From Cloacibacterium sp. TD35 (GTDB lineage: Bacteria; Bacteroidota; Bacteroidia; Flavobacteriales; Weeksellaceae): 64,000 nt of DNA. The position numbers were made by a program, and so were the translations under genes. The notes beneath the pieces were generated by a model. The model saw only the letters and a program-made list of their open reading frames with translations, had not been told where the DNA came from and did not search any database. How positions within the stretch are numbered: position 1 is the first letter of the stretch; the number at the start of each line of letters is the position of its first letter. Where the stretch lies: contig NZ_CP104850.1 in NCBI RefSeq assembly GCF_028864635.1, positions 812,001 through 876,000 of the forward strand. The letters run 5' to 3'. This document shows positions 9,566 to 15,592 of the stretch, one piece after another.

Positions 9566-9616
9566 CGCAATAATCGTGGTTTTAAAAAATTTAACACAAA
9601 GGCGACAAGTTTTATT

Positions 9617-9624
9617 TATTTTTG
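9617..9624 (+). promoter_or_regulatory. Candidate -7 element TATTTTTG for the flavoprotein gene
   Basis: Matches TAnnTTTG, 61 bases before the ATG at 9686. The -33 TTG is not evident. It lies back to back with the thioesterase promoter. Confidence 0.4.
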
Positions 9625-9685: not shown

Positions 9686-10894
9686 ATGAAAAAGAAAATC
9701 ACCATCATTGGAGGCGGCGCTGCAGGATTTTTCTGTGCAGCAAACCTCGATGCAGAAAAATACTACGTTACTATTTTAGAACAAAATAATGAAACCCTCC
9801 AAAAAGTAAAAATCTCTGGAGGCGGAAGATGTAATGTAACTCATGCCTGCTTTGATCCTCGTGAATTGGTGAAATTTTACCCAAGAGGAAACAAAGAATT
9901 GCTAAGCGTTTTCAGTAAATTTAAACCAGGAGATACGATGGATTGGTTTGATCAACGAAATGTTTCGTTGAAGATAGAAGATGATAACAGAATTTTCCCG
10001 GAAAGTAATTCCTCCCAAACCATTATAGATTGTTTCTTGAAAGAAGTTCAAACTAAAAATTTTGAAATCAAAACACAATCAGTCGTTTTAGAAATTCAGA
10101 AATTAGAAGAAGGCTATAAAATCATCACCAAAGAAGGAGAAATTCTTACCGATTATGTAATTTATACCACAGGAAGTTCGCCGAAATCTTTGAAAATGAT
10201 TGAAAATTTAGGGCATAAAATTGTTTCGCCAGTTCCGTCATTATTCACTTTTAATATAAAAAATGATGTACTGAATGATTTAATGGGAACGAGTTTTCCT
10301 CATGCAGAAGTTTCTATTCCAAAATTGAAAATGGAAGAATTTGGTCCACTTCTCATTACGCATTGGGGACTTTCTGGTCCTGCCATTCTTAAACTTTCTG
10401 CTTGGAAAGCCAGAGAACTTTCTGATTTAAAATATAATTTCGAGATTAAAGTCAATTTCATAGGCGTAGACAAAGAACAAGCGGAAGAACTTTTCAAAAA
10501 TTACAGAGAAGAAAATCCCAAAAAAACAATTGGTAATGCGAAAGTTTTTGAAATTACCACTCGCTTTTGGCACCGAATTTTGTGGTTGTCTAAAGTAGAT
10601 TTGGAGAAAAATATTTCTCACATCACAAAGCAAGAACTCCAAAAAATTCTAGAAAATCTTTGTGAAAACACAATGCAAGTCAAAGGAAAATCTACCTTTA
10701 AAGACGAATTTGTAACTGCAGGTGGTGTAGATTTGAAGGAGATAAATTTCAAAACGATGGAATCTAAAATTTTGGAAAATTTCTACATTGCAGGAGAAGT
10801 TTTGAATATTGACGCTGTAACTGGAGGTTTTAATTTCCAAGCTTGTTGGAGTGAAGCATGGCTGATTGCGCAGGATTTGAATGCTAAAAATTAA
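9686..10894 (+). CDS. NAD(P)/FAD-dependent oxidoreductase, HI0933/BaiN family
   Basis: A 402-residue flavoprotein. It begins with the dinucleotide fold IIGGGAAGFFCAANL and the HI0933-type motif KVKISGGGRCNVTH near residue 40-53. The C-terminus has IAGEVLNIDAVTGGFNFQ, the second FAD-binding block typical of this family. Some relatives reduce bile-acid enones (BaiN) but the general family function is not established, so no substrate is given. Its last 4 bases overlap the convergent end of the DUF4403 gene, leaving no room for a separate terminator. Confidence 0.87.
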   Translation: MKKKITIIGGGAAGFFCAANLDAEKYYVTILEQNNETLQKVKISGGGRCNVTHACFDPRELVKFYPRGNKELLSVFSKFKPGDTMDWFDQRNVSLKIEDDNRIFPESNSSQTIIDCFLKEVQTKNFEIKTQSVVLEIQKLEEGYKIITKEGEILTDYVIYTTGSSPKSLKMIENLGHKIVSPVPSLFTFNIKNDVLNDLMGTSFPHAEVSIPKLKMEEFGPLLITHWGLSGPAILKLSAWKARELSDLKYNFEIKVNFIGVDKEQAEELFKNYREENPKKTIGNAKVFEITTRFWHRILWLSKVDLEKNISHITKQELQKILENLCENTMQVKGKSTFKDEFVTAGGVDLKEINFKTMESKILENFYIAGEVLNIDAVTGGFNFQACWSEAWLIAQDLNAKN

Positions 10895-12254: not shown

Positions 12255-14834
12255 TTATTTCCCAATCATCTTTTTAATTGCATTCAACTTCATTAATGCT
12301 TCAATTGGTGTTAAAGTATTGATATCAATTTTAGTAAGTTCTTCTCTGATGTTTTCCAAAACAGGATCATCCAATTGGAAGAAAGACAACTGAAGATTTT
12401 CTTCAGTCACACGTTTTATTTTTTCGGTAGAACCACTTTGAGAGCGAGAATCTTCCAAAGTTTTCAGAATTTCAGAAGCTCTGTTTACTACTTTTGAAGG
12501 CATTCCTGCTAATTTTGCAACGTGAATCCCGAAACTGTGTTCACTACCGCCAGCAACCAGTTTTCTGAGGAAAATAATATTGCCTTTGTTCTCCTGAATT
12601 GTCACGTGGAAATTTTTGATTCTCTCAAAATTCACGCTCATTTCATTGAGTTCGTGGTAATGCGTGGCGAAAAGTGTTTTCGGTTGAGTAGAATGCTGAT
12701 GAAGATATTCTGCAATCGCCCAAGCGATGGAAACCCCGTCATAAGTAGAAGTTCCACGCCCAATTTCATCAAGCAAAATCAAACTTCTCTCAGAAATATT
12801 GTTCAAAATATTCGCCGCTTCATTCATTTCTACCATAAAAGTAGATTCTCCAGCAGAAATATTATCGGTAGCGCCAACTCTAGTGAAAATTTTATCTAAA
12901 ATGCCAATTTCGGCATGTTTTGCAGGGACGAAACTTCCAATTTGCGCCAGTAAACAAATAATGGCAGTTTGTCTTAAAATCGCAGATTTACCCGCCATAT
13001 TTGGCCCGGTAACCATAATGATTTGTTGAGAATCTTTATCTAGAAAAACATCATTCGGAATGTATTTTTCTCCTAAAGGAAGTGATTTTTCTATAATTGG
13101 ATGTCTTCCTTCTTTAATATCAATCGCAAAAGTTTCGTTGAGGACGGGCTTTGTATAATTTTCAGAAATAGAAAGTTCCGAAAGCGAAACCGCACAATCA
13201 ATTTGAGCAATTAATCTAGAATTTTCTTGAATTTGGTCAATATACATCAGTACATTTTCACAAACCTGACGATATAATTGATGTTCAATCTGCGAAATTT
13301 TTTCTTCCGCTCCGAGAATTTGCGTTTCGTATTCCTTCAATTCTTCGGTAATGTAGCGTTCTGCGTTTACCAAAGTTTGTTTACGAATCCAATCTTCTGG
13401 AACCTTGTCTTTATGCGTGTTTCTAACCTCGATGTAGTAACCAAAAACATTATTAAAATCAATTTTTAGAGAAGAAATTCCCGTTCTTTCTATTTCTCTT
13501 TGGCACATTTCATCAAGAAAACCTTTCCCTTTGCTTTGAAGATTTCTCAATCTGTCGAGTTCTTCCGAAATTTCGGATTTGATGACATTTCCTTTGTTGA
13601 GGTTTACTGGAAGTTCTTCATTCAAATGATTTTGAAGATAAGAAATTAGTTCTTCCAAATTGTTCAGAGGTTCTAGCCAAGCCAAAACATCGTGATGAGA
13701 ACTCAATAATTCTCTAATTTTCTGAATATTGATTAAACTCTGACGAAGATAGCCGAGTTCTTTCGGTGAAATTTTTTCGGCAGCTAATTTCCCAATCAAT
13801 CTATCTAAATCTGAAATTCCTTTCAATAAATCTAAAATTTCAAATTTTAAAGAATCTTCTTTGTTGAAAAATTCAATTAAGGAAAGTCTGCGGTTGATTT
13901 CGTTTACTGATTTTAGAGGCAAAATTAATCTTCTACGAAGCAATCTTCCTCCCATTGCAGTGGAAGTTTTGTCAATTATATCGAGCAAAGATTTCCCTTG
14001 AAAATTACTAGAATGTACAATTTCTAAATTTCGCAAAGTGAAATTGTCCATCATCAAATAATCATCTTGCGGAATGCTCTGTATTTTTGTAATGTGTTGT
14101 AAAAGAGCGTGATGTGTATCTTCAACTAAATAAGCGAAAATCGCTCCAGCTGCAGTAATTCCCAATTTTTGTTCTTCAATTCCGAAACCTTTTAGCGATT
14201 TGGTTTTGAAATGGGAGTTCAGTTTTTCGTAGGCAAAATTATATTGATACGCCCAATCTTCTAGCTTGAAACAGTTTTTATTTTTAAGTTGGGAAGGAAT
14301 TTCTGCAGTTCTTTGGTAAATAATTTCCGAAGGATCAAAGGTGTGAACAATGTGTAAAAGTTTCTCTAAGTTACCTTCTGCCACAAGAAATTCACCCGTA
14401 GAAACATCTACTAATGCGATCCCAAATTTCTCTTTTTCTTTGTGAAGAGAAAGCAAGAAATTATTTTTCTTAGAATTCAAAACCTGCTCGTTAAACGTAA
14501 CTCCTGGAGTAACTAACTCTGTAACGCCACGTTTCACAATTCCTTTTACCATTTTAGGATCTTCTAGTTGGTCACATATTGCAACACGCATTCCTGCTCT
14601 TACCAATTTTGGCAAGTAAGAATCTACAGAATGATGCGGAAAACCTGCTAACTCAATATGACCTTCTCCATTGGCTCTTTTAGTAAGAACAATCCCTAAA
14701 ATCTGAGAAGTTTTAATGGCATCTTGACCGAAAGTCTCATAGAAATCTCCCACCCGAAAAAGTAACAAAGCATCAGGATATTTCGCCTTGATGGTATTGT
14801 ATTGTGTCATTAACGGAGTTTCTTTTTTTGCCAT
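12255..14834 (-). CDS. mutS: DNA mismatch repair ATPase MutS
   Basis: An 859-residue full-length MutS. The mismatch-recognition Phe-x-Glu is F31-Y32-E33 in RVGDFYETFG. The core and lever domains follow. The ATPase domain has Walker A GPNMAGKS (residues 610-617), LILLDEIGRGTSTYDG (Walker B and signature) and TLFATHYHEL. A C-terminal helix-turn-helix dimerisation region follows. It recognises mispairs and recruits MutL (not in the window). It heads a two-gene unit with the DUF4403 gene. Confidence 0.97.
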   Translation of the reverse strand: MAKKETPLMTQYNTIKAKYPDALLLFRVGDFYETFGQDAIKTSQILGIVLTKRANGEGHIELAGFPHHSVDSYLPKLVRAGMRVAICDQLEDPKMVKGIVKRGVTELVTPGVTFNEQVLNSKKNNFLLSLHKEKEKFGIALVDVSTGEFLVAEGNLEKLLHIVHTFDPSEIIYQRTAEIPSQLKNKNCFKLEDWAYQYNFAYEKLNSHFKTKSLKGFGIEEQKLGITAAGAIFAYLVEDTHHALLQHITKIQSIPQDDYLMMDNFTLRNLEIVHSSNFQGKSLLDIIDKTSTAMGGRLLRRRLILPLKSVNEINRRLSLIEFFNKEDSLKFEILDLLKGISDLDRLIGKLAAEKISPKELGYLRQSLINIQKIRELLSSHHDVLAWLEPLNNLEELISYLQNHLNEELPVNLNKGNVIKSEISEELDRLRNLQSKGKGFLDEMCQREIERTGISSLKIDFNNVFGYYIEVRNTHKDKVPEDWIRKQTLVNAERYITEELKEYETQILGAEEKISQIEHQLYRQVCENVLMYIDQIQENSRLIAQIDCAVSLSELSISENYTKPVLNETFAIDIKEGRHPIIEKSLPLGEKYIPNDVFLDKDSQQIIMVTGPNMAGKSAILRQTAIICLLAQIGSFVPAKHAEIGILDKIFTRVGATDNISAGESTFMVEMNEAANILNNISERSLILLDEIGRGTSTYDGVSIAWAIAEYLHQHSTQPKTLFATHYHELNEMSVNFERIKNFHVTIQENKGNIIFLRKLVAGGSEHSFGIHVAKLAGMPSKVVNRASEILKTLEDSRSQSGSTEKIKRVTEENLQLSFFQLDDPVLENIREELTKIDINTLTPIEALMKLNAIKKMIGK

Positions 14835-14886
14835 ATGATTTATTCTTTAACGCAAAAGCGCAAGATATTGTTAAAACTATTTTATA

Positions 14887-14894
14887 CAAAATTA
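14887..14894 (-). promoter_or_regulatory. Candidate -7 element TAATTTTG for mutS
   Basis: Complement of CAAAATTA; matches TAnnTTTG and lies 52 bases upstream of the mutS ATG, directly next to the palindromic element that starts at 14899. If real, the -33 region falls inside that element. Confidence 0.4.
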
Positions 14895-14898
14895 CTGT

Positions 14899-14986
14899 TT
14901 TTAAGTCGCAAAGATTCATCAGAGATGAATGATTTTGTTCAAAAAAATAAAAATTTTGTCAAAGACAAAATTCTTGCGACTTAAAA
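14899..14986. repeat. 88-bp palindromic element with three nested hairpins
   Basis: The outer arms are a perfect 13-bp inverted repeat: TTTTAAGTCGCAA at 14899-14911 and its complement at 14974-14986. Inside lie two perfect hairpins: ATTCATC-AGA-GATGAAT (14914-14930) and AATTTTGTC-AAA-GACAAAATT (14952-14972). The fold is a closed outer stem with two branches, like an imperfect cruciform. It has no coding potential and sits in the divergent gap between mutS and the SpoU methyltransferase gene. It resembles REP/MITE-type intergenic repeats; I found no second copy in this window. It could instead be a structured regulatory site. Confidence 0.7.
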
Positions 14987-15033
14987 GCATTCGAAAATCA
15001 AGATTTATATTTCGCCTTTGTATTATAAAACCT

Positions 15034-15041
15034 TAATTTTG
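15034..15041 (+). promoter_or_regulatory. Candidate -7 element TAATTTTG for the methyltransferase gene
   Basis: Matches TAnnTTTG, 14 bases before the ATG at 15056. The nearest TTG (15018-15020) is only 13 bases away, shorter than usual. Confidence 0.45.
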
Positions 15042-15055
15042 CCAAAAATACAAAA

Positions 15056-15592
15056 ATGCAGCCTACCAAAAAACTGAAATTAGAAGAATTAGGAAGAATA
15101 GATGTAGAAACCTTCAAGAATACGGAGAAAATTCCGTTAGTGGTGGTTTTAGATAATATCAGAAGTATGCATAATGTAGGTGCGGCTTTCCGAACTGCAG
15201 ATGCTTTTTTGGTAGAGAAAATTTTATTATGCGGAATTACACCAAAACCTCCTCACAGAGAAATCCATAAAGCAGCACTTGGCGCAACTGAAAGTGTAGA
15301 TTGGCAATTTTACGAAAGCGTGAAAGAAGCAGTAATTGATTTAAAAACTTTGGGTTATGAAGTTGTTGGGATTGAACAAACTACTAATTCTGTGATGATT
15401 ACGGATTTTAACATTGATAAAACTAAAAAATATGCTTTGGTTTTAGGCAATGAGGTTGATGGTATTTCAGATGAAATCCTTACAGATTTAGATGAATGTC
15501 TAGAAATTCCACAGTTGGGAACTAAGCATTCTCTTAATGTTTCGGTTTGCGGTGGAATCGTGATGTGGGAATTTTTTAAAAATTTGAAGTAG
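15056..15592 (+). CDS. SpoU/TrmH family RNA 2'-O-methyltransferase
   Basis: A 178-residue SPOUT methyltransferase. The three family motifs are present: motif 1 LDNIRSMHNVGAAFRTADAF (residues 32-51), motif 2 ALVLGNEVDGI, and motif 3 LGTKHSLNVSVCGGIVMWEF, which form the trefoil-knot SAM site. There is no N-terminal L30e-like substrate-binding domain, so it resembles TrmH/TrmL-type tRNA enzymes more than RlmB. The target nucleotide cannot be read from sequence. It is a single-gene unit ending at the shared terminator at 15629-15654. Confidence 0.9.
   Translation: MQPTKKLKLEELGRIDVETFKNTEKIPLVVVLDNIRSMHNVGAAFRTADAFLVEKILLCGITPKPPHREIHKAALGATESVDWQFYESVKEAVIDLKTLGYEVVGIEQTTNSVMITDFNIDKTKKYALVLGNEVDGISDEILTDLDECLEIPQLGTKHSLNVSVCGGIVMWEFFKNLK

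Follow-up and report, generated by a model that had tools for sequence, protein, structure and literature searches.

The fold between mutS and the neighboring methyltransferase gene is the core of a 183-bp element composed of two inverted, tail-to-tail half-units, which belong to a repeat family dispersed in this genome and in its congeners. The element is probably an ORF-less, non-autonomous, MITE-like member of this palindromic family, the ORF-bearing form of which would be a cassette encoding a GxxExxY protein. All coordinates refer to the window, i.e., the whole 64-kb stretch of DNA that we analyzed, and are collected in Table 1.

Results

An earlier note on this DNA had described an 88-bp symmetric element with three perfect inverted repeats and had judged its fold too regular for chance. 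The repeats were recovered as claimed, namely, a pair of 13-bp arms with first bases at 14899 (TTTTAAGTCGCAA) and 14974 (TTGCGACTTAAAA), a 7-bp stem with an AGA loop, and a 9-bp stem with an AAA loop. The fold itself is real, but its extent was underestimated, since the 88 bp form only the core of the element at 14846-15028. Both strands were folded, as had been proposed, and each was more stable than all of its shuffled versions: the RNA fold of 14896-14990 reached -32.4 kcal/mol (z -7.5; 0 of 200 shuffles equally stable), and the minus strand folded as DNA gave a z of -5.7 (0 of 200). As a whole, the fold is strongly non-random. The 13-bp arms taken alone are weaker evidence, because 264 of 20,000 simulations of the 221-bp gap with an order-1 Markov model (1.3%) produced such a pair and arm pairs of this type occur at five places within the window. 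Rfam covariance models gave no match at gathering score, either in the 64-kb window or in 10 loci with copies.

Each half-unit consists, in order, of an outer arm (TTTAACGCAAARGCGCAA-like), an AT-rich spacer, an inner arm (TTTTTAAGNCGCAA), and a terminal hairpin, and a full family element comprises two half-units in inverted orientation. Related copies have the outer arm TTTTTAACGCAAAGGCGCAA, a spacer of 21 to 35 nt (median, 24), the inner arm TTTTTAAGNCGCAA, and the terminal hairpin. The neighbors named in the earlier note, mutS and a methyltransferase gene, were confirmed by their family matches; the two genes are divergent, and the element nearly fills the 221-bp gap between them, leaving 12 and 28 bp at its sides.

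Table 1. Positions of the element, its parts, and neighboring features in the window
Feature	Position	Strand	Basis
Whole element, two half-units, tail-to-tail inverted, 183 bp	14846..15028		Own-genome-free profile, E 7.9e-11 and 3.1e-10
Left outer arm, TTTAACGCAAAAGCGCAAGAT	14846..14866	+	Profile match and terminus-pattern count
Left inner arm, TTTTTAAGTCGCAAAGA	14898..14914	+	Sequence and family alignments
Left-half terminal hairpin, 7-bp stem, C-AGA-G loop	14914..14930		Fold; stem of at least 6 here in 40 of 52 half-units
Centre, 21 bp; place of the gene in ORF-bearing relatives	14931..14951		Comparison with relatives
Right-half terminal hairpin, 9-bp stem, plus-strand loop C-AAA-G	14952..14972		Fold
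Right inner arm	14971..14987	-	Sequence
Right outer arm, degraded; minus strand reads TTTATAATACAAAGGCGAAATAT	15007..15029	-	Profile match
TAATTTTG box, 5' of the methyltransferase gene whether or not a relative has the element	15034..15041	+	By eye
mutS	12255..14834	-	MutS, NCBIfam E 5.7e-303
SpoU-family RNA methyltransferase gene	15056..15592	+	PF00588, E 1.7e-35
Decayed left half of another copy, located 5' of the gene at 9686	9590..9621	+	E 0.011

The family was delimited with a profile that contains no sequence of this genome, being built from 29 half-units, all from other genomes. At E ≤ 1, it found exactly three matches in the window: 14846-14929 on the plus strand (E 7.9e-11), 14954-15028 on the minus strand (E 3.1e-10), and the remnant at 9590-9621 (plus strand, E 0.011), whose orthologous site in the congener G004 holds an intact full element (L129:1200-1345). 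Both halves of the element match the profile of other genomes and several copies are intergenic, which places it in the family defined by outer arm, spacer, inner arm, and hairpin. With a profile that includes the copies of this genome, the seven genomes of the genus yielded at least 129 half-units (at least 11, 18, 20, 17, 18, 15, and 30 in G000 to G006), these counts being lower bounds since 150 first-look candidates per genome were scored. This genome has at least 11 half-units at eight sites; of the seven sites checked, six are clear of ORFs of at least 90 aa, and the seventh runs 4 bp into the end of an ORF. Two of its three full copies, including the one at mutS, lie 12 to 29 bp from ORFs on both sides; for the third, the distance on the left is 536 bp.

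The outer terminus pattern, with at most one mismatch, matched 67 times in the seven genomes versus once for the reversed pattern. The many copies with matching ends and the intergenic placement that the earlier note expected of a mobile repeat were thus observed. Its suggestion to search with the 13-bp inner arm alone proved uninformative, with 10 matches in the genus versus 23 for a reversed-pattern control and hence no enrichment; the diagnostic ends are the outer arms, which lie outside the 88 bp. Within the window, the inner arm matched 3 times versus a mean of 1.1, and a related terminus pattern matched at chance level (2 versus a mean of 2.3). Two other probes were set aside, namely, a misspaced terminus pattern, which hit one site, and a nucleotide search with 98 bp as the query. 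In the latter, 40 of 40 relatives had matches at E ≤ 1, most of which were short and AT-rich, and the few matches to the arms were the useful ones.

A terminal hairpin with a stem of at least 6 is present in 40 of 52 half-units, a set that includes orthologues, versus 7.9% of controls made by plain base shuffling. Those 40 hairpins have 20 different stems, and 30 of them close with a C-NNN-G triloop; the pairing is therefore conserved and the sequence is not. In one congener, four half-units in one orientation lie within less than 800 bp (G006:C1:1876207-1876987; L127 and L076).

Empty sites, also proposed as a mark of mobility, exist at mutS: the gap to the methyltransferase gene lacks the element in three congeners (83 bp in G002, G003, and G005) and in two genomes from outside the genus, G016 (86 bp) and G012 (56 bp). 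Because genomes of other genera share the element-free form, the simpler interpretation is that this lineage gained the element. A right-end-like sequence is all that remains in the 138-bp gap of G001. G004 and G006 have kept the left arm, with a DUF2625 gene directly after the left outer arm (L112:5143-5892 and L113:3361-4125), and in G006 a right-end-like sequence precedes the methyltransferase gene. About 5 bp separate the end of the element from the TAATTTTG box. The Bacteroidota -7 box has the consensus TAnnTTTG, which TAATTTTG resembles by eye; a consistent -33 box did not appear by eye near it. We found two sigma-70-like sites versus 2.0 expected, which is no excess, and no terminator-like site.

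The ORF-bearing form was recognized in G002, where two halves bracket a 125-aa GxxExxY gene (PF13366, E 1.1e-39; TIGR04256, E 3.3e-41) between an ABC permease gene and that of its ATPase (flanking genes assigned by eye). It occupies 545 to 784 bp between the flanking genes of this transporter junction, and its parts follow the order outer arm, spacer, inner arm, hairpin, and GxxExxY gene, then the same parts mirrored. It shares the ends of the element but encodes GxxExxY and not a known transposase. We compared the junction in the best 30 loci of 77 matching genomes, out of 120 in the family, 29 of which could be parsed, with states assigned by eye. GxxExxY with the outer-arm/inner-arm/hairpin architecture occupies the junction in 6 of 29 genomes, belonging to three genera; the gap is 4 bp or less in 10, this genome and G001 among them, and 23 to 46 bp in 7, of which 3 resemble right-end scars. 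Another small ORF lies there in four genomes, and an ORF-less palindrome of other dialects lies there in two. The junction (L350-L356 and L437-L459) is an insertion hotspot with alternative small ORFs, arm dialects, ORF-less palindromes, and scars. No target-site duplication was seen by eye at the junction, and the flanks of the mutS site are too diverged for this comparison.

GxxExxY genes are present in 18 of 40 relatives, and many of them sit between inverted arms, whose dialects vary. Inverted repeats from flank to flank scored above 95% of mismatched pairs for 31 of 47 distinct GxxExxY proteins with flanks above 150 bp, versus 0 of 29 methyltransferase control loci (from 30, one being short), 18 of 25 23S-IVP genes (without L382 and the short L374), and 4 of 17 Y1 genes (from 21). 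Orthologues were kept in each set, which lowers the percentiles, most of all for Y1, whose median score was 20.5 versus 9. CRCRRAG iterons at GxxExxY genes are oriented, with 35 forward and 15 reverse upstream and 5 and 38 downstream. The corresponding upstream and downstream counts were 1/3 and 0/2 for 23S-IVP, 1/6 and 1/1 for the controls, and 7/1 and 2/4 for Y1, which is intermediate. Unmutated AACGCAAAGNCGC-type arms stand on both sides in 4 of the 50 GxxExxY gene rows in relatives (three distinct loci, one orthologous site), and locus L320 has them on both sides with one mismatch each; most of the 50 rows have other arm sequences. The 23S-IVP (PF05635) genes at L357-L386 are often bracketed by inverted arms as well, with sequences unlike those of the GxxExxY arms. 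Such arms also have DUF2625 or other ORFs next to them or enclosed by them, so that a bracketed gene need not be the mobilizer.

GxxExxY proteins constitute PF13366 in the PD-(D/E)XK superfamily. The predicted structure (pLDDT, 82.7) is PD-(D/E)XK-like, and its nearest neighbor is 4ic1, a Cas4-type nuclease. Foldseek ranked 4ic1 first (E 1.3e-3), and no match reached an E of 0.001. The VIA list gave 4ic1 (Z 9.5; 104 aligned; rmsd, 4.5) and 3ijm (Z 8.4; 99 aligned; rmsd, 3.0), with Holliday-junction resolvases ranking lower (1gef; Z 6.5; 87 aligned; rmsd, 3.4). The comparison of the predicted model supports a PD-(D/E)XK fold, nothing more specific. No PDB chain matched GxxExxY by sequence at E ≤ 1, and no relative was found in the viral contigs scanned.

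The earlier note had invoked a transposase acting in trans, which our searches did not find: this genome has no match to Y1_Tnp (Y1/RAYT), and the gene bracketed by the family arms is not a known transposase. This genome has no PF13366 match either. Y1_Tnp matches occur in all six congeners. Of 21 Y1/RAYT-like genes inspected in relatives, one has an outer arm in its neighborhood, at a distance of 1.4 kb; the repeats that flank RAYT-like genes differ from the element. One group of RAYT-like genes (L162, L168, L169, and L171) is flanked by a hairpin, CCCGCTGCGCAAAGT..., in which GCGCAAAG is common to the arms of the element. Across the seven genomes, the numbers of half-units correlate with those of GxxExxY genes (rho 0.81, P 0.03) and not with those of Y1 (rho 0.23) or 23S-IVP genes (rho 0.13), a weak correlation given seven related genomes and the counting of GxxExxY genes of all dialects.

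The ends recur far beyond the genus. The exact outer-arm 20-mer occurs in at least 118 sequence stretches, versus about 0.5 expected in random sequence, and the 80 titles listed cover many phyla. A mirrored arm with at most two substitutions follows within 1.2 kb downstream at 65 of 124 20-mer sites, an uncontrolled count. A GxxExxY ORF is present in the fetched DNA at 6 of 118 loci, and most cross-phylum copies are without one. At those six loci, arms of the same dialect lie near the gene, on one flank or on both, a result favored by the choice of the loci via the 20-mer; bracketing is clean in Geobacteraceae and Marinilabiliaceae metagenome-assembled genomes, and the arms are reversed in L242 and L296. 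PF13366 matches were found in 11 of 12 picked genomes that carry the 20-mer. The exception, a Caldilineaceae chromosome (OY282381.1), has at least seven copies of the 20-mer (L212, L228, L234, L237, L240, and L255) and no PF13366 match. In Sorangium, AACGCAAAGGCGCAAAGGCGCAAAGGCGCAAA and its mirror stand on either side of a GxxExxY gene. The iterons of the 20-mer-bearing genomes, Sorangium included, number 21 forward and 8 reverse upstream and 0 and 21 downstream, over 23 loci (24 of 30 were looked at and one was too short).

Discussion

The copies, the matching ends, the intergenic sites, and the empty sites uphold the part of the earlier note that saw the element as a mobile repeat, but neither the transposase in trans nor the REP tags and RAYT linkage found support. 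MITEs are non-autonomous elements with terminal inverted repeats, and it is a MITE that our element works like: it is short and ORF-less, has terminal inverted repeats, the right arm being degraded, shares its ends with a longer ORF-bearing form, lies between genes, and is missing from orthologous sites. It is unlike a MITE in that the bracketed protein is PD-(D/E)XK-like GxxExxY, that no target-site duplication was seen by eye at the transporter junction, and that it has long internal arms and hairpins. We infer that GxxExxY is the mover of the element. ORF-less copies would have arisen from ORF-bearing ones or been copied together with them; the PD-(D/E)XK-like protein may target the paired arms, where it could, for instance, nick or cut a cruciform once extruded or a hairpin of single-stranded DNA, and host repair may then copy the cassette into intergenic DNA. 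The copies in this genome are probably relics, because neither a GxxExxY nor a Y1/RAYT match was found in the genome, the element has a degraded right outer arm, and half of the copy at 9590 is gone.

Several other accounts deserve consideration. The arms might be the passive recombination ends of a cassette-holding site, at which unrelated small genes (GxxExxY, DUF2625, or a membrane ORF) are swapped by host recombination with no dedicated enzyme. The DUF2625 gene right behind the same left arm at mutS in two congeners and the different ORFs and arm dialects at the transporter junction are in line with this account, which we nevertheless regard as rather improbable, since GxxExxY recurs in the two-arm architecture at one junction in three genera and with the same terminus dialect in other phyla. 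We consider it unlikely that the element is of the REP/REPIN type and owes its movement to a RAYT (a Y1 tyrosine transposase) acting in trans, with a secondary GxxExxY association. Single and inverted-pair half-units do resemble REP singlets and dimers, every congener has Y1_Tnp matches, and one RAYT-like group has a flanking hairpin that contains GCGCAAAG. Against these points, Y1/RAYT-like genes of relatives have different flanking repeats and the outer arm is rarely near them, this genome is without a Y1 match, the Y1 counts do not track the half-units, and neither GTAG nor CGTC occurs on either strand of 14846-15028.

Also raised by the earlier note, a regulatory role of the element for mutS or the methyltransferase gene is unsupported. 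That it is a domesticated structure, be it a shared leader, an RNase III site, or a promoter-proximal structure for both genes, appears very unlikely to us: the element has a very stable fold, nearly fills the divergent gap, and ends close to TAATTTTG, but the gap does without it in five relatives from this and other genera, the same family occupies unrelated sites, and terminator-like sites, an excess of sigma-70-like sites, and Rfam matches did not turn up. As for chance secondary structure in an AT-rich spacer, the frequency of 13-bp arms in simulated gaps is the one point in its favor, and its probability is negligible in view of the shuffled folds, the terminus matches, and the number of half-units; the match of both halves to a profile free of this genome refutes it.

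The proposed MITE-like element can be set beside other described repeats. One account gives GTAG and CGTC as tags of REP super-families (PMC3733652). As described there, REP/REPIN sequences with their RAYT are similar in that half-units occur singly or as inverted pairs, lie between genes, and form hairpins; the element differs by having neither GTAG nor CGTC, half-units of about 75 to 85 nt with two arms, and no linkage to the RAYT-like genes examined (PMC3733652). Neither an end tag in 14846-15028 nor the repeat flanking a RAYT gene in the 21 neighborhoods was found. In concept, the 23S rRNA intervening sequence comes closest; in it, as described for Coxiella, a small ORF for the S23 protein sits in the loop of an inverted-repeat-bounded element, as in the GxxExxY cassettes; that element is called selfish and is patchily distributed (PMC4990558). 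The inverted repeats at 18 of 25 PF05635 genes in the relatives extend this likeness, whereas our element lies between mutS and the methyltransferase gene and not in 23S rRNA, its family encodes GxxExxY and not S23, and its arm sequences are others. The "multicopy nucleotide sequences" of Geobacter are described in two reports as dispersed intergenic families, some palindromic and some direct repeats (PMC2996986, PMC2700814); compared by description only, they resemble the element in being dispersed, intergenic, and in part palindromic.

In the literature searched, outside which lie preprints and most subscription journals, six arm sequences of 12 to 15 bases had no occurrence, and among the matches listed such repeats were not linked to a partner gene. 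In the passages available from that literature, a role of GxxExxY/PDDEXK_3 proteins is nowhere stated; GxxExxY occurs in two papers there and, in one of them, is mentioned in passing.

More tentatively, GxxExxY proteins may be the mobilizing nucleases of undescribed selfish cassettes that cross phyla and have lineage-specific arm dialects, the gene-less intergenic palindromes of many bacteria, the one at mutS among them, being their non-autonomous copies. On this broader proposal, which we put forward with less than even confidence, each lineage could have one dialect built on short iterons (CGCAAAG, CACAGAG, CACGAAG, CACAAAG, and others), and the 23S-IVP four-helix-bundle proteins might form a parallel class of cassettes with arm dialects of their own. 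An isolated fold beside mutS has become the entry point to a class of repeats whose ends recur across phyla. If true, our proposal would give GxxExxY/PDDEXK_3 proteins a testable function and would provide a reason for the buildup of small palindromes between genes in many bacteria.
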